Origin: Sideroxydans sp. CL21
GTDB lineage: Bacteria > Pseudomonadota > Gammaproteobacteria > Burkholderiales > Gallionellaceae
DNA: 64,000 nucleotides
Assembly (NCBI RefSeq): GCF_902459525.1
Contig: NZ_LR699166.1
Span: 907,501 to 971,500, forward strand
Reading direction: 5' to 3'
In this document: piece by piece, positions 5,320 to 59,530 of the stretch
Layout: every line of letters starts with the position of its first letter
Numbering within the stretch: position 1 is the stretch's first letter
Notes under the pieces: generated by a model
The model's database searches: none
What the model saw: only the letters and a program-made list of their open reading frames with translations
Told to the model about the DNA's origin: nothing
Position numbers and translations under genes: made by a program

Positions 5320-6687
5320 GTGCGTTTTAAATTACCAGGCTTTCTGGGTGTAGTTTTCTCCTCGTTAGGGTTCGTGCTTGTATTGTTCGGGTGCGCCATC
5401 CCGTTCCGGTGCCAGGCAGACACATCCGATGTCGAGGATACGACCGCACGATTTCAGATGACATACAACTGGCAGAGACACCCTGCCTACCCGGCGGCTT
5501 ATTCGGGGCCGAACAGCTTGAATGCGTACGCGGAGACGATGTACACATTCTCTGCGGACGCTTTTCTGGGGTTTCGCCCCTGGGAAGGAGGCGAAGTCTA
5601 TTTCACTCCGGAACTCTTTCAGGGGGTGCCATTTTCCAACAATCTGGTTGGCATGGGCGGTTTCACCAACGGCGAAATCACCCGTGCCGCCGGACCCAGC
5701 CTCACTCTTTACCGGCAAAAACTTTTCTTGCGGCAGACCTGGGACAACGGTGGCGGTACTGAACATATCGAATCAGATCTCAACCAGATGGCCGGTTGGC
5801 ATGACAAGAACCGCTTCGTCCTGACGATAGGTAATTTTTCGACGCTGGATGTTTTCGATCCGAATACCTATGCCAAGGATCCGCGCACCCAGTTCATGAA
5901 CTGGGGGAACATGACTTATGCGGCCTACGACTATGCAGCCGATGCGCGCGGCTTCGGCTGGGGTTTTGCGGGCGAGTGGTATCAGGACGACTGGGTGCTG
6001 CGCTTCGGCCGAATGACAGGGCCCACGCAGCCCAACATGCTTTCAGTCGATACGGCAATCGGTTCCCATTACGGAGATCAGGTTGAAGTCGAACATGCGC
6101 ATACGCTGTATGGCCGTCCCGGCAAAGTGAGGGTGTTGGGCTGGAGGGATCGTGCCGTACTCGCCAGTTTCAGCGATGCACTTGCCTGGCTCAATGCCCA
6201 TCCGGGACAGTACACCGGACCGGATGCGCTTTACGCGGTACGCAATACCAACAAGATCAAATATGGCGTTGGCGTCAATGTTGAACAGGAGATCAGCGAC
6301 AGTACGGGATTCTTCATGCGCGTCATGAAAGCGGACGGACGCACGGAGACTTATGCCTTTACCGAAGCCGATGCTTCGTTTTCCAGCGGTTTTCTGATCA
6401 AGGGTGACCGTTGGGGGCGCCACGAAGATAACGTCGGCATCTCATTGATGCGCAACACCATTTCGGCTGACCGTCGCCATTTCCTTGAGGCCGGCGGCAT
6501 CTCCTTCTTCATAGGCGACGGCAGGTTGAATTACCGCCCGGAAGATATTTTTGAGGGCTTCTACAGTTTGAGCCTGGGCAAGGAATATTGGTTGACCGCG
6601 GATTATCAACTCATCCAGAACCCCGCATATAACGCCGATCGCGGGCCGATCGATGTTTATGCCCTGCGCTTCCACGCCGAGTTTTAA
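5320..6687 (+). CDS. OprB-like carbohydrate porin
   Basis: Outer-membrane beta-barrel of 455 aa, similar to the carbohydrate-selective porin OprB family, which lets sugars or other small solutes diffuse into the periplasm. It has an N-terminal signal peptide (MRFKLPGFLGVVFSSLGFVLVLFG...), repeated aromatic amphipathic strands, and a C-terminal ALRFHAEF with terminal Phe as expected for barrel insertion. The start is a GTG at 5320, placed by AAGGAG seven bases upstream. An extra Cys in the signal region (FGCAI) could suggest a lipobox but lies early, so a lipoprotein is unlikely. It precedes the RND operon by about 160 bases; a functional link is not shown. Confidence 0.82.
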   Translation: MRFKLPGFLGVVFSSLGFVLVLFGCAIPFRCQADTSDVEDTTARFQMTYNWQRHPAYPAAYSGPNSLNAYAETMYTFSADAFLGFRPWEGGEVYFTPELFQGVPFSNNLVGMGGFTNGEITRAAGPSLTLYRQKLFLRQTWDNGGGTEHIESDLNQMAGWHDKNRFVLTIGNFSTLDVFDPNTYAKDPRTQFMNWGNMTYAAYDYAADARGFGWGFAGEWYQDDWVLRFGRMTGPTQPNMLSVDTAIGSHYGDQVEVEHAHTLYGRPGKVRVLGWRDRAVLASFSDALAWLNAHPGQYTGPDALYAVRNTNKIKYGVGVNVEQEISDSTGFFMRVMKADGRTETYAFTEADASFSSGFLIKGDRWGRHEDNVGISLMRNTISADRRHFLEAGGISFFIGDGRLNYRPEDIFEGFYSLSLGKEYWLTADYQLIQNPAYNADRGPIDVYALRFHAEF

Positions 6688-47934: not shown

Positions 47935-48768
47935 ATGTACAAAACTAAATTCATTTTCAAGCCACTGACGTGGACAATGACATTGCTGATGACTGCTTTG
48001 ACAACTGGATGCTGGATGGACGGAAGTGGTGGAGGGAGTGTGTCGGCCGCGGCCGCCGGTCCTGCAAGTGCTGGTCCGGTGGGGACGGCTTGTGTGGGAG
48101 CGAGTTGCGTGCCTCTTGGAACGGCGGCCAATTACGTGATTCTGGCAAAAACAGGCGTTTCAACCGTTCCCAATTCTGTGGTAACCGGGAATATCGGATT
48201 GAGCCCGGCCGCGAGGACATTTCTGACCGGATGGTCACTGATATCCGAATCGACGGATACCTCTTTTTCATCTGCTCAAGTTGCAGCACCCGGAAGGTTA
48301 TATGCGGCCGACAATGTGGGCGGGACGACGTCAGTCAATCTGACGACGGCAGTTGGCGACATGCAGACTGCTTATACCGCTGCCGCCGGCAAGGCGGGAG
48401 GATCGTGTCCGGGGGTTGGCATTATGAGTGGGTTGACCATTGCGCCTGGCGTCTACACCTGTGCCAACGGCGTTACCATACCAACGAGTATCACACTCAG
48501 CGGCACGGCAACGGACGTGTGGGTGTTCCAGTTTGCGCAAGGGTTAACACAGTCTGCCGCAACGCAAGTCATCCTGGCAGGAGGTGCGTTACCCAAGAAT
48601 GTGTTCTGGCAGGTTGCGGGCGCAGTGGATATTGGAACGACCGCACTCATGCAGGGAGTGATATTGTCGCAGACATCGATCAATCTGCAGGCGGGTGCAA
48701 AGGTGAACGGCAGACTGCTGGCGCAAAGTGCCGTGACGCTCAATCAGAACACGATCACAGTTCCGTAA
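47935..48768 (+). CDS. DUF3494 (ice-binding-like) lipoprotein 1
   Basis: 277 aa. A lipoprotein signal ends TTGC (Cys26), then a short Gly/Ala linker and one DUF3494 domain (about 58-277): LGTAANYVILAKTGVSTVPNSVVTGNIGLSP, then APGVYTCANGVTIPTSITLSG, WVFQFAQGL, KNVFWQVAGA and the closing NGRLLAQSAVTLNQNTITVP. DUF3494 is the fold of microbial ice-binding proteins, a beta-solenoid beside a long helix; not every member binds ice. CGGGAGA precedes the ATG. The simplest of four paralogues, with no Ig-like module. Confidence 0.92.
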   Translation: MYKTKFIFKPLTWTMTLLMTALTTGCWMDGSGGGSVSAAAAGPASAGPVGTACVGASCVPLGTAANYVILAKTGVSTVPNSVVTGNIGLSPAARTFLTGWSLISESTDTSFSSAQVAAPGRLYAADNVGGTTSVNLTTAVGDMQTAYTAAAGKAGGSCPGVGIMSGLTIAPGVYTCANGVTIPTSITLSGTATDVWVFQFAQGLTQSAATQVILAGGALPKNVFWQVAGAVDIGTTALMQGVILSQTSINLQAGAKVNGRLLAQSAVTLNQNTITVP

Positions 48769-48897: not shown

Positions 48898-49185
48898 TTA
48901 CAGCTTTGCAATGCTTTTCTTGGTGAATAAACAGTCCTTCAATTCGCTTGAGAACTTGGGATCGTTGCGCCGGATCCATTCCAGCAACATGGACGCATGC
49001 TCTTTCTCGTTGTCCCGGTTGTGTATCAGGATCGCCTTGAGTTCCCTGTCCTTGCAAACATCGGCGCGCTGGTTGTACCAGTCAATGGCTTCCAGTTATT
49101 CCGTGAGGAAAACTGGGGCCTTGTGCATGTTGCACACTGCTTCGGACAGTTCATGTTTGGACTCGTGATAGTCGGTATTGAACAT
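48898..49185 (-). pseudogene. Encapsulated ferritin-like protein (EncFtn) with in-frame stop
   Basis: Read from the ATG at 49185 the frame gives 95 codons that match encapsulin-cargo ferritins: MFNTDYHESKHELSEAV..., then LEAIDWYNQRADVCKD, HNRDNEKEHASMLLEWIRR and a CLFTKKSIAKL end. The only defect is a TAA at 49098-49096, in the position of the second Glu of the usual EELEAxDW motif, a metal ligand in R. rubrum EncFtn (Glu32, from memory). GAA to TAA is a single change. Other ligands (EKEH) are intact. No encapsulin shell gene is present in the window. A sequencing error cannot be excluded. Confidence 0.85.
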
Positions 49186-49236
49186 TACATACTCCTGTGG
49201 ATTGCATGAGCGTTGGAAGAATGCCGACCCTAGGAC

Positions 49237-49578
49237 TTACAAAAGTTCATTGTCGGAATCTTCGGATTTTGAACCGAGAGCGGAGGCAAGGTATTTCAGG
49301 CCGAAGAAAATGGCAGAAGGATAGAGATACAACAGGCGCCATCCGTTTTTTGCAAGGCCGACTATGCCGTGACGGCGCCATGTCAGCAGTGCCGTCATTC
49401 CGCCTGCAAACAATACGGGATGGGCTTGGATCATGCGAACCGCATGCAAGCCGACATCGACGACTGCCAATGGCCTATGCAAATGCAGGGAGGTCTCGGC
49501 CATTGCCATGCGCTGGACTTCAATCTGCTCCAGAAGTTCGAGGCGGCGTTGGGCAATACGGGCAAGATGCTTGTTCAT
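49237..49578 (-). CDS. YqjK-like protein
   Basis: 113 aa. Helical N-terminus (NKHLARIAQRRLELLEQIEVQR) followed by a hydrophobic stretch (HPVLFAGGMTALLTW) and a second near the C-terminus. It matches the YqjK family by pattern and by place, last in a YqjD-YqjE-YqjK set as in E. coli. It overlaps the preceding stop as ATGA. Function unknown. Confidence 0.75.
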   Translation of the reverse strand: MNKHLARIAQRRLELLEQIEVQRMAMAETSLHLHRPLAVVDVGLHAVRMIQAHPVLFAGGMTALLTWRRHGIVGLAKNGWRLLYLYPSAIFFGLKYLASALGSKSEDSDNELL

Positions 49579-49952
49579 GAGCGCGGAGTAAGACGATCAA
49601 TATCGTCGGACAATTCGGACAGGCTCGCGGAAAACAGTCTGGGTCTTGCGCTAGCGAGATTGCGCAAGGCGTACCAGAACGACAGACCGGCAACCAGGAA
49701 CAGCAAAGTCAGTCCGCCCAATACCTGCAGGCGATAGCTATCCCAGAACACCACGACGATAAATACTGTCAGCAGCATGATGGTCATGCCAAGGAAAAAC
49801 AGGGCAGCGCTTCCATAGAACAGCATTTGCCTGACACGCAGCCGCTCTTCCTCGATCTCGTTGCCCAGCAATTCAAGCCGTGTCTGAATGATGGCGAGCA
49901 AAGTACTCGTCATCCTCTTTAACGACTCCAGGAGTCCGGTAGCTTGCGGCAT
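49575..49952 (-). CDS. YqjE / phage-holin-like membrane protein
   Basis: 125 aa with two strong membrane helices (about 44-70 and 76-95) after an amphipathic N-terminal helix rich in Glu and Arg (LLGNEIEEERLRVRQ), the pattern of YqjE/Holin-X family proteins. It lies between the DUF883 gene (2-base gap) and the YqjK-like gene (4-base overlap). Probably an inner-membrane stress protein. Confidence 0.85.
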   Translation of the reverse strand: MPQATGLLESLKRMTSTLLAIIQTRLELLGNEIEEERLRVRQMLFYGSAALFFLGMTIMLLTVFIVVVFWDSYRLQVLGGLTLLFLVAGLSFWYALRNLASARPRLFSASLSELSDDIDRLTPRS

Positions 49953-49954
49953 GT

Positions 49955-50281
49955 TTAGCGCCGTGCGATCAACATCCCAACGATGGCTCCCACACAGGCG
50001 GAGATACCGATCGCTTTCCAGGGATTGTCGTGGACATATTGATCAGTGACTTTTGCAGCTTCCCTGGTACGCTGGATCACGGCGTCTTCCGCGTCGACCA
50101 ATTGCTCCTTCACGGTTTGCAGGCTCTTCTGGATGCGCGCACGTGCGACTGTCGCACCTTCACCGGCCTGGTTGGCAGTCGCGCGCAAAAGCTCTTCTGC
50201 ATCTGCAACCACCAGTCGCAAGTCTTCCATAAGCTTGTCTTTGGAGGTCGATATGTTTGTATGCATTGTCTTCGTAGTCAT
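49955..50281 (-). CDS. DUF883 (ElaB/YqjD) family membrane protein
   Basis: 108 aa: a long N-terminal helix (SKDKLMEDLRLVVADAEELLRATANQAGEGATVARARIQ...) and a C-terminal membrane segment with the family signature DNPWKAIGISACVGAIVGMLIARR. In E. coli such proteins are RpoS-induced, tail-anchored and bind ribosomes in stationary phase. Start ATG 50281 with AGGGAGT upstream; an in-frame ATG at 50329 adds 16 residues without a ribosome site. First of the yqjDEK-like set. Confidence 0.92.
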   Translation of the reverse strand: MTTKTMHTNISTSKDKLMEDLRLVVADAEELLRATANQAGEGATVARARIQKSLQTVKEQLVDAEDAVIQRTREAAKVTDQYVHDNPWKAIGISACVGAIVGMLIARR

Positions 50282-50353
50282 TGCTTTACTCCCTGGTTGA
50301 AATGTCATGTTTAACTGCGTTAAGGCCAACTGAACTATTGGCTAAGAGATATT

Positions 50354-50665
50354 TCACTTTTTCTGCATATCGTTCTTGACGGATTGCACGCCTTTGACAC
50401 CGGTTGCGATTTCGACTGCTTTGTCCATGTTTGCCTGCGAGCTGACGAAGCCGCTCAGCTGAACGATGCCCTTGTAAGTTTCAACGTTGATCTCGGATGA
50501 TTTCAGGGTGGATTCACTGAACAGCGCATCCTTGACCTTGGTGGTTACAACACTGTCATCGAAATACTCGCCGGTACTTTCCTTGGTTGCCGTGGAAGCG
50601 CACCCGAAGGAAAACAGCAAAGCGACAGTCATAAATAGTGCGGCAAAATATTTCAGTTGTTTCAT
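50354..50665 (-). CDS. BON-domain lipoprotein
   Basis: 103 aa; lipobox FSFGC, then one BON domain (DDSVVTTKVKDALFSESTLKSSEINVETYKGIVQLSGFVSS). BON domains bind phospholipid and occur in envelope-stress proteins such as OsmY. GGGAGATC lies upstream. A paralogue of the same type lies at 61140. Confidence 0.92.
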   Translation of the reverse strand: MKQLKYFAALFMTVALLFSFGCASTATKESTGEYFDDSVVTTKVKDALFSESTLKSSEINVETYKGIVQLSGFVSSQANMDKAVEIATGVKGVQSVKNDMQKK

Positions 50666-50769
50666 GTTCGATCTCCCGATGGATGGTTGGTCAATTTACC
50701 CGTGTGCAATTTTAAAAATATTGGCACTATCAATTCGCGGCATGCGTGCCGCGAATTATTGGGAGCACA

Positions 50770-50928
50770 TCACAATCGCCCCAACAACAACAGAATAAGC
50801 AAAACAACCAGGACTAGTCCCAGTCCCCCGCTGGGACCATAGCCCCATGACCTGCTGTGCGGCCAAGCCGGGATCACGCCGATCAGCATCAACACAACAA
50901 TGATCAATAAAATCATTCCCAATGACAT
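50770..50928 (-). CDS. DUF3309 small membrane protein
   Basis: A 52-residue protein: MSLGMILLIIVVLMLIGVIP, then AWPHSRSWGYGPSGG, then a second hydrophobic helix ending LLILLLLGRL. This two-helix layout with the WPHS-WGY-P-GG centre is the DUF3309 family, often found beside BON and other stress genes. AGGAAA precedes the ATG at 50928. Function unknown. Confidence 0.9.
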   Translation of the reverse strand: MSLGMILLIIVVLMLIGVIPAWPHSRSWGYGPSGGLGLVLVVLLILLLLGRL

Positions 50929-50964
50929 ATAAATTTTCCTTGTCTGAATTAATGGAACAGATGA

Positions 50965-51855
50965 CTAGCGCGGAGCGAAATTGCCCTTATCGTCTGAAAT
51001 GATGACTTCTACACGCCGATTCAGTTGACGGTTGGTCGCTGTATCGTTGCTCGCGACGGGAAACTCCTTGCCATACCCGCGCGTCGAGACACGATTACTG
51101 CTGATGCCCGCGTCATCGACCAGCGCTCTGCGTACTGCCTCTGCGCGACGTTCGGAGAGATCCTGATTAAGACTGTCGCTGCCGGTACTGTCTGTGTAGC
51201 CTTCGATCAGCACCTTGTGTTGCGGATATTCCTTCAGGAAATCGGCCAGTTTTTGCACATTGCGCGTTCCGCCGGATTTCAACTGTGCCTTGTTGATACC
51301 GAACAGCACATCGCCAAGCGTGACCACCAGGCCGCGATTTGTTTGCTTGGCATTCAATGCCTTGAGCTCCAGTGCCTGTTTGGCGATCAGAGCCTGGTCA
51401 TTCGCCGAATTGGCGCTGGCAGCCTCCAATTCCTTATTCTGCTGGTCAGCGGCCTTCTGCATGCTCGATACCTGTTCTTTTGCCGCGTCGGCTTCAGCCG
51501 TCCTCGCATCCAGACGAACCTGATTGCGTTCGGTCGTGGCGTTGGCGACGGCCAATTCAGCCGATTTGCGTTTGGCCGTCTCCTCTGCGATAGCCACGCG
51601 CTGATTGGCCAGGTAGGCCAGATGATTGACCAAGGCAGTGTCGTCACCGTTGCTCAGTGCGGTATCTGCGTTGTACAGGGAGTCGTTGGCTTCTTTCAAT
51701 TCAAGCGGTGCAAGATTGGTAACTTCAGGATTGGCACTTGCATTGTTGTAGTTGCTGTGTGCATCGGTGAGAGCCGAATTGGTCCTGACTGTGTTGCAGC
51801 CCGCCAGAAGCGCGATGGCGATGAGCGCCATGGGAAAGTATTGGATTTTTTTCAT
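50965..51855 (-). CDS. OmpA-family lipoprotein with DUF4398 domain
   Basis: 296 aa; lipobox LLAGC. Residues about 30-165 are helical with a DUF4398-type repeat region (APLELKEANDSLYNADTALSNGD...), followed by a coiled coil and a C-terminal OmpA domain (about 180-285) with VLIEGYTDSTGS and LSERRAEAVRRAL, keeping the Asp and Arg that hold peptidoglycan diaminopimelate. It likely staples outer membrane to cell wall. The ATG at 51855 has TGGAGT upstream; a second ATG at 51867 is possible. Confidence 0.92.
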   Translation of the reverse strand: MKKIQYFPMALIAIALLAGCNTVRTNSALTDAHSNYNNASANPEVTNLAPLELKEANDSLYNADTALSNGDDTALVNHLAYLANQRVAIAEETAKRKSAELAVANATTERNQVRLDARTAEADAAKEQVSSMQKAADQQNKELEAASANSANDQALIAKQALELKALNAKQTNRGLVVTLGDVLFGINKAQLKSGGTRNVQKLADFLKEYPQHKVLIEGYTDSTGSDSLNQDLSERRAEAVRRALVDDAGISSNRVSTRGYGKEFPVASNDTATNRQLNRRVEVIISDDKGNFAPR

Positions 51856-51873
51856 GATGGACTCCATTGAGAT

Positions 51874-52278
51874 TTACTTGGTTTTGCGGTCGATCTCGTT
51901 GCGCAACACGCGACTGTCTTCCTGTATAGCCGCGGCAGCTTTTTGTGCTTTGATAGAGCGGGCTATCAGTCCGGCCAGTTTGGCATCGACCTCCGCTTCT
52001 TCGGCCAGCTGGCTGGCAAGCTGATAATGCTCTGCAGTCATTGCCTGCTCGGCACCTTGCATTTTGTCCATCGCCGACTTGAGTTGTACCGGTGCAAATT
52101 CATTGGCTCCGGCACTGTTGGCATTGTTAAGTGCAGCCCTTGAAACTGCCATCTGCTCGATCGGGGGAGGGACGCTGGCGCAACCCGATATAAGAATCAC
52201 GGCAACAAGTGACATGCCGATCCCGCGTAGTGTTTGATGCGCTCTGGAGCTATTGAGATTTTTCATCACATTTTCCAT
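51874..52278 (-). CDS. DUF4398 lipoprotein
   Basis: 134 aa; lipobox LISGC followed by ASVPPPIEQM, then a helical DUF4398 domain (VSRAALNNANSAGANEFAPVQLKSAMDKMQGAEQAM). It is closely related to the N-terminal part of the OmpA lipoprotein encoded 18 bases downstream, and the two are surely one operon. Confidence 0.88.
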   Translation of the reverse strand: MENVMKNLNSSRAHQTLRGIGMSLVAVILISGCASVPPPIEQMAVSRAALNNANSAGANEFAPVQLKSAMDKMQGAEQAMTAEHYQLASQLAEEAEVDAKLAGLIARSIKAQKAAAAIQEDSRVLRNEIDRKTK

Positions 52279-53687: not shown

Positions 53688-54148
53688 AGTCTCAATCGCC
53701 CTTCCATCGTGTTTGTCTGGTCGTTCACCCTGCATTCTGCACACCTTGATTTGATCTCTGATAGTTCATTGGGGAAGCTGATTGGTTCGCGATTTCAGGT
53801 TACGGCGATTCTCACGCTTGCTCAGAATGCACTCTGTGCGCTAGCACTCATGAGGCGAAAAATTCCCCTCAAAACACGATCCGGTACTGCCTGCCCGGGT
53901 AGTACCGATAAATTTCCCTATGTGTGCAAGTGCACAGAGCGTTGTGCACTAATGGGGGATAAACACAACTTGTACAACTTGTGCCTTTGTCTCGGCCGAT
54001 TTGATTTTGAATTGCTGTAGACCAAGCTGAGATTCACAAAGCCGCGAAGTTTGCCCTTTGAGAATATTACTGAGCGTAAGTGAATAAGCGCCAGCAAGGG
54101 CGATTGGTTGAACCGATACTGCTTGAATCAGTTAACGAGGAAAATAAA
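53688..54148. other. Regulatory region before DUF3494 gene 2
   Basis: 461 bases between the divergent AI-2E-family gene and DUF3494 gene 2. It contains the inverted repeat GGTACT-gcctgcccggGTAGTACC (about 53883-53906) and the class II promoter element at 53921-53963, leaving a leader of about 180 bases. Open frames here have no ribosome site or family resemblance. Confidence 0.6.
53921..53963 (+). promoter_or_regulatory. Class II activator promoter element, DUF3494 gene 2
   Basis: CRP/FNR-type dyad TGTGT-GCAAGT-GCACA centred at 53928.5 and GATAAA at 53958-53963. If GATAAA is the -10, transcription starts at about 53970 and the dyad centre is at -41.5, exact class II geometry. The block TATG-N11-ACAGAG-N15-GGGGATAAA is shared without gaps with genes 1 and 4. 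Confidence 0.7.
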
Positions 54149-55621
54149 ATGAACAAAATCGAGAAAGTAACAAAGCCAGTGACTTGGCTCATGGCATTAT
54201 TGCTGACGGGTTTTGTGGCGGGATGCGGCGGGAGCAGCAGTGGCGCCGTCGCCGTAGCGCCTGCGGGGCCAAAAGTGAGTTACACCATCCCTGCTGCAAA
54301 TGCCACAGGCGTCGCAACCAACAGCAAGGTCACGGCCACATTCAGTAAAGACATGGCTCCGGCAACGATCACCGCAACCAGTTTTACGCTGGTGAACACC
54401 ACATCGGGCGGGGCGGTCATAACAGGCGCAGTAGTCTACGATATCACTACCAAGACAGCGATCTTCATACCGACGGCAGCGCTACCGGCCAGCAGCGTGT
54501 TTACTGCAAAGATTTCCACCGCAGTCAAAGACGTGGCAGGTGATGCGATGGCTGCCGCTAAAACATGGAGCTTTACTACCAGTGCAGCGGCAGATACGAC
54601 ACCGCCGACCGTGAGTTCAACTGTTCCCGCGGATTTGGCAACCGGGGTGGCTCTCAATGCGACTGTCACTGCTTTCTTCAGCAAAGCAATGGATCCGTTG
54701 ACAATCAACGTTACGAACATCACGTTAATGCAAGGGATCACGCCTGTTCCAGGTGCGGTGACCTATGTGAGTGCAAACGCGTCTTTCGGCACAAGTGCGG
54801 TTTTCAAACCTACCAGCAACCTTGCGGCCAGCACCGCTTATACGGCTACGGTTACAACCGGGGTCAAGGATCTGGCTGGCAATGCATTGGCTATAGCAAA
54901 AACATGGAGCTTTACAACTGGCACAACGGTAGCCGCAGGACCGGCTCCTGTACTTCTGGGAACTGCAGCCAACTATGCGATTCTGGCAAAGACTGGCGTT
55001 TCGACCATACCGACTTCAGTCGTGACTGGAAATGTGGGTGTGAGTCCGGTTGCCAGGACATATTTGACCGGATGGTCGGAAACCTATGACGTAACGGATA
55101 CTTATGCCACCTCCACGCAAGTAGTCGCGCCCGGAAAGTTATATGCAGCCGACTTGGTGGGAGGGACGACCTCTGCCGACCTGGGCACTGCCGTGCTCGA
55201 TATGGGCACTGCATATACCGATGCCGCAGGACGGACAGCCACATCGGCTGCGACAACCAACGTGGGTGCCGGAACGCTGACCAGCTTGACACTTACACCC
55301 GGTGTGTATGAATGGGGGAGCGCAGTTTCCATACCGACGGATCTCACACTTAATGGCAGTTCAACAGATGTATGGATCTTCAAGGTGGCGGGAACGCTCG
55401 GCATGGCTTCAGCCAAGAACGTAATTCTGAGCGGAGGTGCATTGCCGCAGAATATCTTCTGGCAGGTTTCGGGTGCCGTGACCATCGGGGCAAACTCTCA
55501 CTTTGCAGGGATCATTCTGGGTCAGACATCGATCACGTTTAATAATCTTTCATCGATCAACGGCAGGCTGCTCGCGCAGACTGCGGTCGTGCTGGATGCG
55601 ACTACGGTTACACAGCCGTAG
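54149..55621 (+). CDS. DUF3494 (ice-binding-like) lipoprotein 2 with two Ig-like modules
   Basis: 490 aa; lipobox VAGC then GGSSS. Two Big_5-type Ig modules (about 45-150 and 155-265), each with VTATFSKDM or VTAFFSKAM and a closing KTWSFTT, then DUF3494 (about 273-490; LGTAANYAILAKTGVSTIPTSVVTGNVGVSP ... NGRLLAQTAVVLDATTVTQP). The Ig-like spacers would lift the DUF3494 head off the outer membrane. GAGGAAAA precedes the ATG at 54149; an upstream ATG at 54080 would hide the lipoprotein signal. No Ca-binding RTX features. Confidence 0.92.
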   Translation: MNKIEKVTKPVTWLMALLLTGFVAGCGGSSSGAVAVAPAGPKVSYTIPAANATGVATNSKVTATFSKDMAPATITATSFTLVNTTSGGAVITGAVVYDITTKTAIFIPTAALPASSVFTAKISTAVKDVAGDAMAAAKTWSFTTSAAADTTPPTVSSTVPADLATGVALNATVTAFFSKAMDPLTINVTNITLMQGITPVPGAVTYVSANASFGTSAVFKPTSNLAASTAYTATVTTGVKDLAGNALAIAKTWSFTTGTTVAAGPAPVLLGTAANYAILAKTGVSTIPTSVVTGNVGVSPVARTYLTGWSETYDVTDTYATSTQVVAPGKLYAADLVGGTTSADLGTAVLDMGTAYTDAAGRTATSAATTNVGAGTLTSLTLTPGVYEWGSAVSIPTDLTLNGSSTDVWIFKVAGTLGMASAKNVILSGGALPQNIFWQVSGAVTIGANSHFAGIILGQTSITFNNLSSINGRLLAQTAVVLDATTVTQP

Positions 55622-55727: not shown

Positions 55728-55870
55728 GCAACCGGTGGGATTTGGTTCCGGCTGTATCAATGCCGTATTGGAACAGAACTAACCCTGGTTAAAGTCATTG
55801 CAAAACGCCAGTTTAAAGAATCAATCGATTGCACCGATGCTTTTCGGTGGCCAATAAAAGGAGAAGCAAA

Positions 55871-57664
55871 ATGAACAAATTTCAAAGCGTTACGAAATCA
55901 CTGCGGTGGTTCATGGCGTTACTGGTAGTCGCTTTTGTCGCCGGATGCGGCGGGGGCGGTGGAATAGGTGTTGCCCCGAGTTCGACCAAGGCCATTACGG
56001 CCTATTCGCTGGCGGCTTATCCTGCGGCCGTAGTCACTATAAACGAACCGCTTAAGACGATCGCAGTGATCGTACCGAGCGGTACTTCCCTCACGGCTCT
56101 GGTTGCGAAATTTACCAGCACAGGAATGGGCTCACCTACGGTGGGTGGCATTAATCAGGTAAGCGGGACAACAGCGAATAACTTCACATTGCCTAAGCCG
56201 TACGTCGTCACAGCGGCAGACGGCACGATGGCGACCTATACCGTCACCATCTCTTGGGCTGTGGCTTCTGCCAATGGCATTTCCTCCTTTTCGTTTGCCG
56301 CCTATCCCGCTTCTATCGGAACTATAACCGGTTCGGCATCGCCATTCGCCATCGCGGTGACCGTGCCTAACGGGACAGTCGTAACGAATCTGGTTGCGAC
56401 ATTCGCGACTACGGGAACAGGTGTAACGGTAGCTGGTTTAGCACAGGTGACTGGTACGACTGCGAATAACTTCACAGCTCCGGTGGTGTACACGGTCACA
56501 GCGGCGGACGGCACCACGGCGACCTATAACGTCACCGTCACTGTGGCTCCGGTTGCTGCCAAGGCGATTACTTCCTATTCATTTGCCGCAGTCCCCGGGT
56601 CTGTAGGAATCATAACCGGAACGACATCGCCATTCGCCATCGCGGTTTCTGTGCCAAACGGGACAGCCGTAACGAACTTGATTGCGACATTCGTGACCAC
56701 AGGTACTAGCGTAACAGTGGCCGCAACGGGTACTCAGGTGAGCGGTGCAGGTGGTACGCAGAATAATTTCACAAGTCCGGTAGCCTACACGGTGCATGCG
56801 GCGGATGCCACAACGGCAGTTTATAACGTCACCGTTACCGTAGCTGCTTCGGGACCAGTAGTCTGCGGGGGAACGAGCGGTACGAACTGCGTGAATCTTT
56901 TGTCTGCCGCTAATTACGCGATTCTGGACGAGGCGACAGTTACGTTCACACCGATTGCTACTAGTACCACCGTCGCTACGATCACTGGGAATGTTGCGGT
57001 GAGTCCGGCTGCAGCAAGTTTCATGACAGGATTTGCGTTGGCCCTGGATCCGGCGAAGTGTTTTTCAACATCGACTCGGGTGACTGGCAGGCTCTATGCG
57101 GCCGACTATAGTTCAGTCAACGGGTGTGCAACGGCGACGACTGACACTGCCACGATATTGACCACGGCTATAGGCGATAAAAATGCTGCATATAGTGCCG
57201 CTGCCGCGAAGCCAACAGCAGGTGGCGGGCTGACAGGAGGTGCAACTGGTACACCTCGCGAATGCCCGGGTGTCGGCGCAATGAGTGACGTGAATAATGC
57301 GTTGACAGCTGGGGGTGGTTTCGCAGCATCAGGTCTTCCCGCTGGCGTCTACACCTGTGGTGTCAATATTACGATACCGGGGACTCTCACCCTCAACGGC
57401 AACGCAACCGATGTCTGGGTATTCAAGACTACGGGAACGCTTAGCGAGTCTACCAATGTGCAGGTACTCTTGACCGGTGGCGCACTGCCCCAGAACGTGT
57501 TCTGGCAGGTTGCCGGTGGCGTGACTATTCAAGGTGGCGCGCATATTGAGGGAGTGGTCATGTCGGCAACCAACATCCAACTCGTGACTAATGCAACCGT
57601 AAAGGGCAGGCTGTTGGCAAAGACCGGGGTTCTCATGGATTCGAATACTGTCGTACAGCCGTAA
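55871..57664 (+). CDS. DUF3494 (ice-binding-like) lipoprotein 3 with three repeat modules
   Basis: 597 aa; lipobox VAGC then GGGGG. Three DUF5018-like repeats (about 35-125, 132-222, 230-325), each of the form ITSYSFAA...GTITGT...PFAIAVTVPNGT...NNFT.PV.YTVTAADGTTATYNVTV, then DUF3494 (about 330-597) with an extra insertion around the fifth turn. The repeats share long near-identical DNA stretches, a sign of recent internal duplication. AAAGGAGAAG lies upstream of the ATG at 55871. Confidence 0.9.
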   Translation: MNKFQSVTKSLRWFMALLVVAFVAGCGGGGGIGVAPSSTKAITAYSLAAYPAAVVTINEPLKTIAVIVPSGTSLTALVAKFTSTGMGSPTVGGINQVSGTTANNFTLPKPYVVTAADGTMATYTVTISWAVASANGISSFSFAAYPASIGTITGSASPFAIAVTVPNGTVVTNLVATFATTGTGVTVAGLAQVTGTTANNFTAPVVYTVTAADGTTATYNVTVTVAPVAAKAITSYSFAAVPGSVGIITGTTSPFAIAVSVPNGTAVTNLIATFVTTGTSVTVAATGTQVSGAGGTQNNFTSPVAYTVHAADATTAVYNVTVTVAASGPVVCGGTSGTNCVNLLSAANYAILDEATVTFTPIATSTTVATITGNVAVSPAAASFMTGFALALDPAKCFSTSTRVTGRLYAADYSSVNGCATATTDTATILTTAIGDKNAAYSAAAAKPTAGGGLTGGATGTPRECPGVGAMSDVNNALTAGGGFAASGLPAGVYTCGVNITIPGTLTLNGNATDVWVFKTTGTLSESTNVQVLLTGGALPQNVFWQVAGGVTIQGGAHIEGVVMSATNIQLVTNATVKGRLLAKTGVLMDSNTVVQP

Positions 57665-58048: not shown

Positions 58049-59530
58049 ATGAACAGAATCGACAGTATTACAAAACCGCTGATTGGGTTTGTGGCAATAC
58101 TACTGACCGTTTTAGCGGCGGGATGCGGCGGAAGCAGCAGTCCCATCCTGGGTGGAGGCGGTGCCGGACTTCCGGCAAAATTAGACAAGACACGGCCAAC
58201 AGTGACTGTTACCGTCCCTGCCAATTTGGGCACTCTGGCCGCCAATTCGGCAATCACGGCAACGTTCTCCAAGGATATGGCAGCTGCTACGGTCACCGCG
58301 GCTGCAACTTTTACGGTCAAGGAAACGGTCAGCGGAGCGAACGTACCGGGTGCGACAGTCACCTACTCAGTGGCCGGCAAAACCGCAACCTTTAAACCGA
58401 CGGCGCTTACGTCGGGATTGGGGTATACAGCCACGATCACCACCGCGGCCACAGACCTGGCAGGCAATGCGCTCGCTGGTAACCAGGCCGCTTTGCCCGC
58501 AGCCAGTAACTATGTGTGGACCTTTAGTGCCTCGGCAGCAGACCTTACGCCGCCGACGGTGACTCTTACAAGCCCGGTAGATGCTGCTTCGGGCGTGCCG
58601 CTCAATAGCACCGTCGATGCAACGTTCAGCAAGGCGATGGATCAGGCAACGCTCAGTACGGCCACCTTTACGCTGGCAACCAGCGCGGTGTCTCCAGTAA
58701 GCGTATTGGGCGCAGTCACCTACGACGCGGTAAACAATATTGCGATCTTTACGCCAACCAGCAATCTCGCAGCCAGCACTCCATATACCGCTACGATCAA
58801 AGTCGGCGCTAAGGATCTGGCAGGAAATGCATTGGCTGCAGGTACCAAACCTAATCCATGGTCATTTACCACAGGTACGGGGCTCGCACCCGGTGCAATT
58901 GCGCTTGGTTCAGCAAGCACCTACGGGATTATGGCAACGGCCGCGGTTACTGCTGCCAGCGCCTCGGTTATTAATGGGGATGTTTCGTTGAACCCCGGCA
59001 CTTCAATGACCGGATTTCCTCCGGCAGTCGTGAATGGCACGGTACATATCAACGATACTTTTTCTGCACAGGCCAAGAGCGACCTGCTGGCCGCGTATAA
59101 CAATGCCAAAGGTCTGGCATGTGCAACAACCGTGGGTAGCGCGGATCTGGGTGGGTTGTACGTTTATCCGACAGGCATTCCTCCGGGCGTCTATTGTTCC
59201 GGCAGCACGATGCTGGTTGGGGCACATATTGTTCTTGACGGAGGCGGTAATGCAAATGCCGTCTGGGTCTTCCAGGTCGGTTCCTCGCTGACTTCGAATG
59301 CCGACGTTACGCTGACTGGCGGTGCTCAAGCCAAAAACGTGTTCTGGGTAACCGGTTTGGATGCCACTGTCGGCTCGGGCACGACCTTCAATGGAACCAT
59401 CTTGGCTGGCCGAGACGCCAACTCTGCAGGTACTGCGACGCTCTACGGCCGGATACTGGCAGGAGCGATCTATGCCGGCACGATTGCCCTGAACGGCCCC
59501 CCCAGCACTGTTAACGTCCCAGCCCCGTAA
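58049..59530 (+). CDS. DUF3494 (ice-binding-like) lipoprotein 4 with two Ig-like modules
   Basis: 493 aa; lipobox AAGC then GGSSSP. Two Big_5-type Ig modules (about 45-165 with ITATFSKDM and 168-285 with VDATFSKAM ... NPWSFTTG), then a DUF3494 domain (about 290-493) more diverged than the other three: SASTYGIMATAAVTAASASVINGDVSLNP, PPGVYCSGSTMLVGAHIVLDGGG, NAVWVFQVGS and KNVFWVTGLDATVGSGTTFNGTILAG. AAAGGAGAAA lies upstream. No terminator follows; the OmpA gene starts 52 bases later, so they are probably co-transcribed. Confidence 0.9.
   Translation: MNRIDSITKPLIGFVAILLTVLAAGCGGSSSPILGGGGAGLPAKLDKTRPTVTVTVPANLGTLAANSAITATFSKDMAAATVTAAATFTVKETVSGANVPGATVTYSVAGKTATFKPTALTSGLGYTATITTAATDLAGNALAGNQAALPAASNYVWTFSASAADLTPPTVTLTSPVDAASGVPLNSTVDATFSKAMDQATLSTATFTLATSAVSPVSVLGAVTYDAVNNIAIFTPTSNLAASTPYTATIKVGAKDLAGNALAAGTKPNPWSFTTGTGLAPGAIALGSASTYGIMATAAVTAASASVINGDVSLNPGTSMTGFPPAVVNGTVHINDTFSAQAKSDLLAAYNNAKGLACATTVGSADLGGLYVYPTGIPPGVYCSGSTMLVGAHIVLDGGGNANAVWVFQVGSSLTSNADVTLTGGAQAKNVFWVTGLDATVGSGTTFNGTILAGRDANSAGTATLYGRILAGAIYAGTIALNGPPSTVNVPAP

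Follow-up and report, generated by a model that had tools for sequence, protein, structure and literature searches.

For the EncFtn of R. rubrum (Rru_A0973, PDB 5da5), an iron-dependent decamer with ferroxidase activity is known, and its ferroxidase ligands are Glu32, Glu62, His65 and Tyr39 (PMC5012862). In crystals of the E32A variant the centre is without metal, showing that Glu32 is needed for metal binding (PMC5012862). This protein, of 140 aa, is partnered by an encapsulin and carries the targeting peptide for it at its C-terminus. A shorter type of EncFtn goes by the name s-FLP in a review that does not settle its encapsulation (PMC11202242). The type member of s-FLP, NE0167 from Nitrosomonas europaea (PDB 3k6c), has 95 aa and no targeting peptide. 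The 3k6c structure is decameric (PMC11202242), so that a ring of ten subunits is probable for intact s-FLPs, with a di-iron ferroxidase centre where subunits meet; such proteins would oxidise cytoplasmic Fe(II) unaided by encapsulin. We infer by analogy that the short class shares the decamer and the ferroxidase chemistry known from R. rubrum EncFtn.

The window analysed here, a stretch of 64,000 nucleotides from Sideroxydans sp. CL21, has a G+C content of 54.6% and is part of one contig, 3,772,857 bases long. The minus-strand frame 49185-48898 reads as 95 residues with one in-frame TAA inside, followed by the true stop, and is translated MFNTDYHESKHELSEAVCNMHKAPVFLTE*LEAIDWYNQRADVCKDRELKAILIHNRDNEKEHASMLLEWIRRNDPKFSSELKDCLFTKKSIAKL. 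Its sequence makes it very probable that a chromosomal gene of the shell-less s-FLP type, encoding a short EncFtn, has here been inactivated not long ago. The features of the gene are:

48898..49185, minus strand: 95-codon encFtn pseudogene with terminal stop, of the short, shell-less class (s-FLP) (PF22277, 3k6c, orthologues L002 and L003)
49192..49196, minus strand: Shine-Dalgarno AGGAG, 6 nt 5' of the ATG, kept in L002 and L003
49108..49116, minus strand: codons 24-26 (Pro-Val-Phe); P24 and F26 are absent from 116 homologues
49096..49098, minus strand: premature TAA as codon 30, aligned with R. rubrum Glu32 (translation, alignment, homologue counts)
49009..49011, minus strand: codon 59, Asn, aligned with R. 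rubrum Glu61 of the putative iron-exit site (PMC5012862); Glu or Asp in 116/116 homologues

The original prediction described the frame as a full-length EncFtn-type gene with one TAA, and the profile searches bear this out. With the stop entered as X, the Pfam EncFtn-like profile PF22277 matches residues 6-89 over profile positions 2-85 of 85 (E=2e-36), at 124.1 bits against a gathering cut-off of 27. The NCBIfam model TIGR04535 matches with E=5.6e-31 and 106.9 bits, below its cut-off of 125 bits, and an intact orthologue scores 123.1 bits. In phmmer searches 3k6c aligns with the frame over residues 1-93 (E=1.1e-33), and R. rubrum EncFtn (5da5) is matched with E=2.8e-26. A chance explanation of the EncFtn match is excluded. 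The frame ends in ...KKSIAKL without a C-terminal targeting peptide, like L002 and L003 and as expected for the length and tail of an s-FLP. The TAA at codon 30 interrupts the frame within the PF22277 domain, and this copy is a pseudogene rather than a working member of the family.

The alignment with R. rubrum EncFtn has an offset of 2, which places window codon 30 at Glu32; the predicted loss of a conserved ferroxidase Glu thus stands, this residue being Glu in 116/116 homologues. The equivalents of the ligands Tyr39, Glu62 and His65 are still encoded, as are those of the entry-site residues Glu31 and Glu34 (window Glu29 and Glu32) and of the exit-site residues His57 and Glu64 (window His55 and Glu62), whereas that of Glu61 is Asn. 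NE0167 shares the downstream motifs of the window gene, but is intact and has Glu at codons 30 and 59. The claim that all other motifs are intact therefore has to be amended, given N59 at the Glu61 position and P24 and F26 in conserved helix 1.

The nonsense change at the Glu32-equivalent codon would end the protein after 29 residues. Since the truncation would precede helix 2 and the ligands Glu62 and His65, no ferroxidase could form. That the N-terminal piece of 29 residues, or a shortened protein, has taken on a new role is very improbable. The Shine-Dalgarno sequence and the first 23 codons are largely kept, as such a role would require, but the replacements S2F, L24P and S26F all lie inside the fragment, which also lacks helix 2 and the ferroxidase centre.

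Two intact orthologues without the stop were found in the same genus, L002 (genome G029) and L003 (genome G013), which are 93% and 92% identical to the window copy and supply, at the same locus, the close-relative comparison called for earlier. Compared with both, the window copy carries S2F, V/I4T, L24P, S26F, K47R and E59N in addition to the stop. We counted residues by tblastn alignment in 116 distinct homologues outside this trio. Residue 26 is Ser in all 116, residue 24 is Ile, Leu or Val in all 116, and F2, P24, F26 and N59 occur in none (0/116). Four of the six missense changes in the window copy are to unseen residues, as compared with 15 of 96 in controls (Fisher p ~0.01), the controls being differences from 21 pairs of like divergence that are not independent of each other. 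The number of replacements on the window branch (7 seen, 3.6-4.3 expected, P 0.07-0.14) is not significantly raised, and the flanking genes show an N:S ratio on this branch similar to that of the encFtn copy. With its further replacements at conserved positions, the gene has evidently drifted. As the stop is the single disabling change, with no frameshift and with Shine-Dalgarno sequence and length preserved, the break is young, in agreement with the original prediction. Taken together, the sequence evidence is that of a young, drifting pseudogene, and we infer that EncFtn function has been lost in this genome.

A sequencing or assembly error, with the gene intact in the living strain, had been raised as an alternative. 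One disabling change only, in a gene of preserved start and length with two intact orthologues in relatives, is what such an error would leave; a single error, however, does not explain the four further replacements unseen in the 116 homologues. Residual errors of high-coverage PacBio assemblies are mostly indels, not substitutions. The CL21 assembly is one contig of 3.77 Mbp with a G+C content of 54.9%, obtained by PacBio RS II at 263-fold coverage (PMC6952672). Because of this coverage and the four unseen residues, the stop is probably real, a substitution error in the consensus being unlikely; the alternative is thereby weakened and we regard it as improbable. Even less probable is continued production of a functional EncFtn by read-through of the stop or by restarted translation. 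Past the stop, the frame runs on without a frameshift as far as its natural end, as read-through or restart would need, and among the matches listed the window copy is the only full-length one with a stop, which argues against it. Of the stop codons TAA leaks least, there is no ATG, GTG or TTG start just 3' of it, and the first in-frame ATG further on, codon 66, lies beyond His63. The drift at conserved sites also argues against a selected product.

The gene order around EncFtn is common to the window, L002 and L003 loci: AI-2E-type transporter, DUF4398-like, OmpA-like, BON, DUF883, YqjE, YqjK, EncFtn and ice-binding-like gene. The first three are tentative family assignments; the neighbours from BON to the ice-binding-like gene were assigned by Pfam:

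50354..50665, minus strand: BON-domain protein (PF04972)
49955..50290, minus strand: DUF883 (YqjD/ElaB-type) protein (PF05957, PF19029)
49575..49952, minus strand: YqjE / holin-3_6 membrane protein (PF07332)
49237..49578, minus strand: YqjK-like protein, the upstream neighbour, 51 nt before the encFtn ATG (PF13997; synteny)
47935..48768, plus strand: ice-binding-like (DUF3494) protein, downstream and convergent (PF11999, E=1.9e-58; place kept near L002 and L003)

A scan for promoters and terminators found nothing. Short EncFtn genes recur near such a DUF883/YqjE/YqjK/BON cluster of envelope-stress-like genes (48898-52278 in the window, and L032, L063, L069, L073, L077, L081 and L099), in hosts from the Gallionellaceae, Thiobacillus, Sulfuriferula and the Rhodocyclales. 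This recurrence suggests a shared stress regulon. Within a 12-kb part of the window there are four ice-binding-like (PF11999) proteins (47935-48768, 54080-55621, 55829-57664 and 58049-59530), two of which carry Big_5 Ig-like domains; the nearest relatives also have several. In Candidatus Contendobacter, one EncFtn (L058, match 6001-6279) carries Tyr in place of His65, a residue invariant elsewhere, and the same genome holds a second copy (L035). In the genus of the window genome EncFtn is patchy, being found in 10 of 34 genomes searched (window genome included; many genomes are incomplete), and the gene is therefore dispensable.

No encapsulin shell gene accompanies the window gene, as had been predicted: a PF04454 (encapsulin) profile search of the whole genome gave no match, the controls did match, and the genome thus shows no shell gene beside its cargo in the sense of TIGR04535. 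The original prediction took the neighbouring encapsulin to be missing, but its absence is normal for a gene of the short, shell-less class. In a class-level sample, 65 of 80 EncFtn genes are not beside an encapsulin gene, and 61 of 75 further EncFtn-bearing genomes of the class are without any encapsulin. The remaining 14 have encapsulin, and in these EncFtn adjoins the shell gene; an additional EncFtn lies elsewhere in four of them (G074, G256, G296 and G307), and likewise in G050, which belongs to the window's order. The survey speaks against encapsulation of short EncFtn in most hosts. Among 80 genome-collection loci, tblastn with one encapsulin query found a match in 0/80 fetched flanks, several of which end at contig ends. 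These 80 relatives measure 90-101 aa from the matched start, and the nearest ones end ~10 residues after the last helix with no targeting peptide. In contrast, the EncFtn of G050 (L015), 47% identical to the window copy over the domain, has 126 aa, and ends in ...RLTVGAMKGA, the matched domain being followed after ~120 bp by an encapsulin gene. EncFtn and encapsulin are also adjacent at G122:C86:23717-24876 and G256:C227:5531-6205; in G256 the two matches point to the same 492-aa open frame, which may be a fusion of the kind known from archaea.

A second EncFtn copy, suggested as a check, was not found in the complete genome. PF00210 (ferritin, bacterioferritin, Dps) gave no match in the window genome at E<=0.001 and matched 14/14 control genomes, and a bacterioferritin model gave none either. 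A weak PF00210 match at G000:C1:238713 was rejected as a hidden ferritin, being a rubrerythrin (PF02915, E=4.6e-19). Nearly all members of the genus have a strong PF00210 match, which in G028 comes from a Dps-like protein encoded close to ubiA and recG. At this place the window genome (G000) and G013 have instead:

G000:C1:238434-240450 (L150 8435-10451): rubrerythrin, rubredoxin-like frame and FAD-dependent reductase, beside ubiA/recG

Direct searches for Dps in G000, G013 and G029 found nothing, G029 being only 64% complete; G013 (92% complete) has two intact EncFtn genes. As no other EncFtn, encapsulin, bacterioferritin or Dps was found and only rubrerythrin remains, the broken encFtn is, among recognised families, the only candidate ferritin-type store found in the genome.

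An important part in buffering intracellular iron is ascribed to ferritin-type proteins, above all under a high flux of Fe(II), and the organism, an iron oxidiser, does handle much iron, as had been surmised. Neither ferritin nor encapsulin is mentioned in the main text of the CL21 and Gallionellaceae pangenome papers. A pseudogene by itself is ordinary; a possibly ferritin-free iron oxidiser may be the interesting part. On the genomic evidence, we give an even chance to CL21 being an Fe(II) oxidiser without a working ferritin-superfamily store (no Ftn, Bfr, Dps or encapsulin, and EncFtn broken). EncFtn would then have been the last store to go, since the nearest relatives, though likewise without Dps, have one or two EncFtn genes still intact. 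The survey, in which most host genomes are without encapsulin, bears on the question of whether short EncFtn are encapsulated. If CL21 is indeed a cultivable iron oxidiser without ferritin, with near relatives that have EncFtn, it would offer a direct test of the need for iron storage in neutrophilic iron oxidisers.
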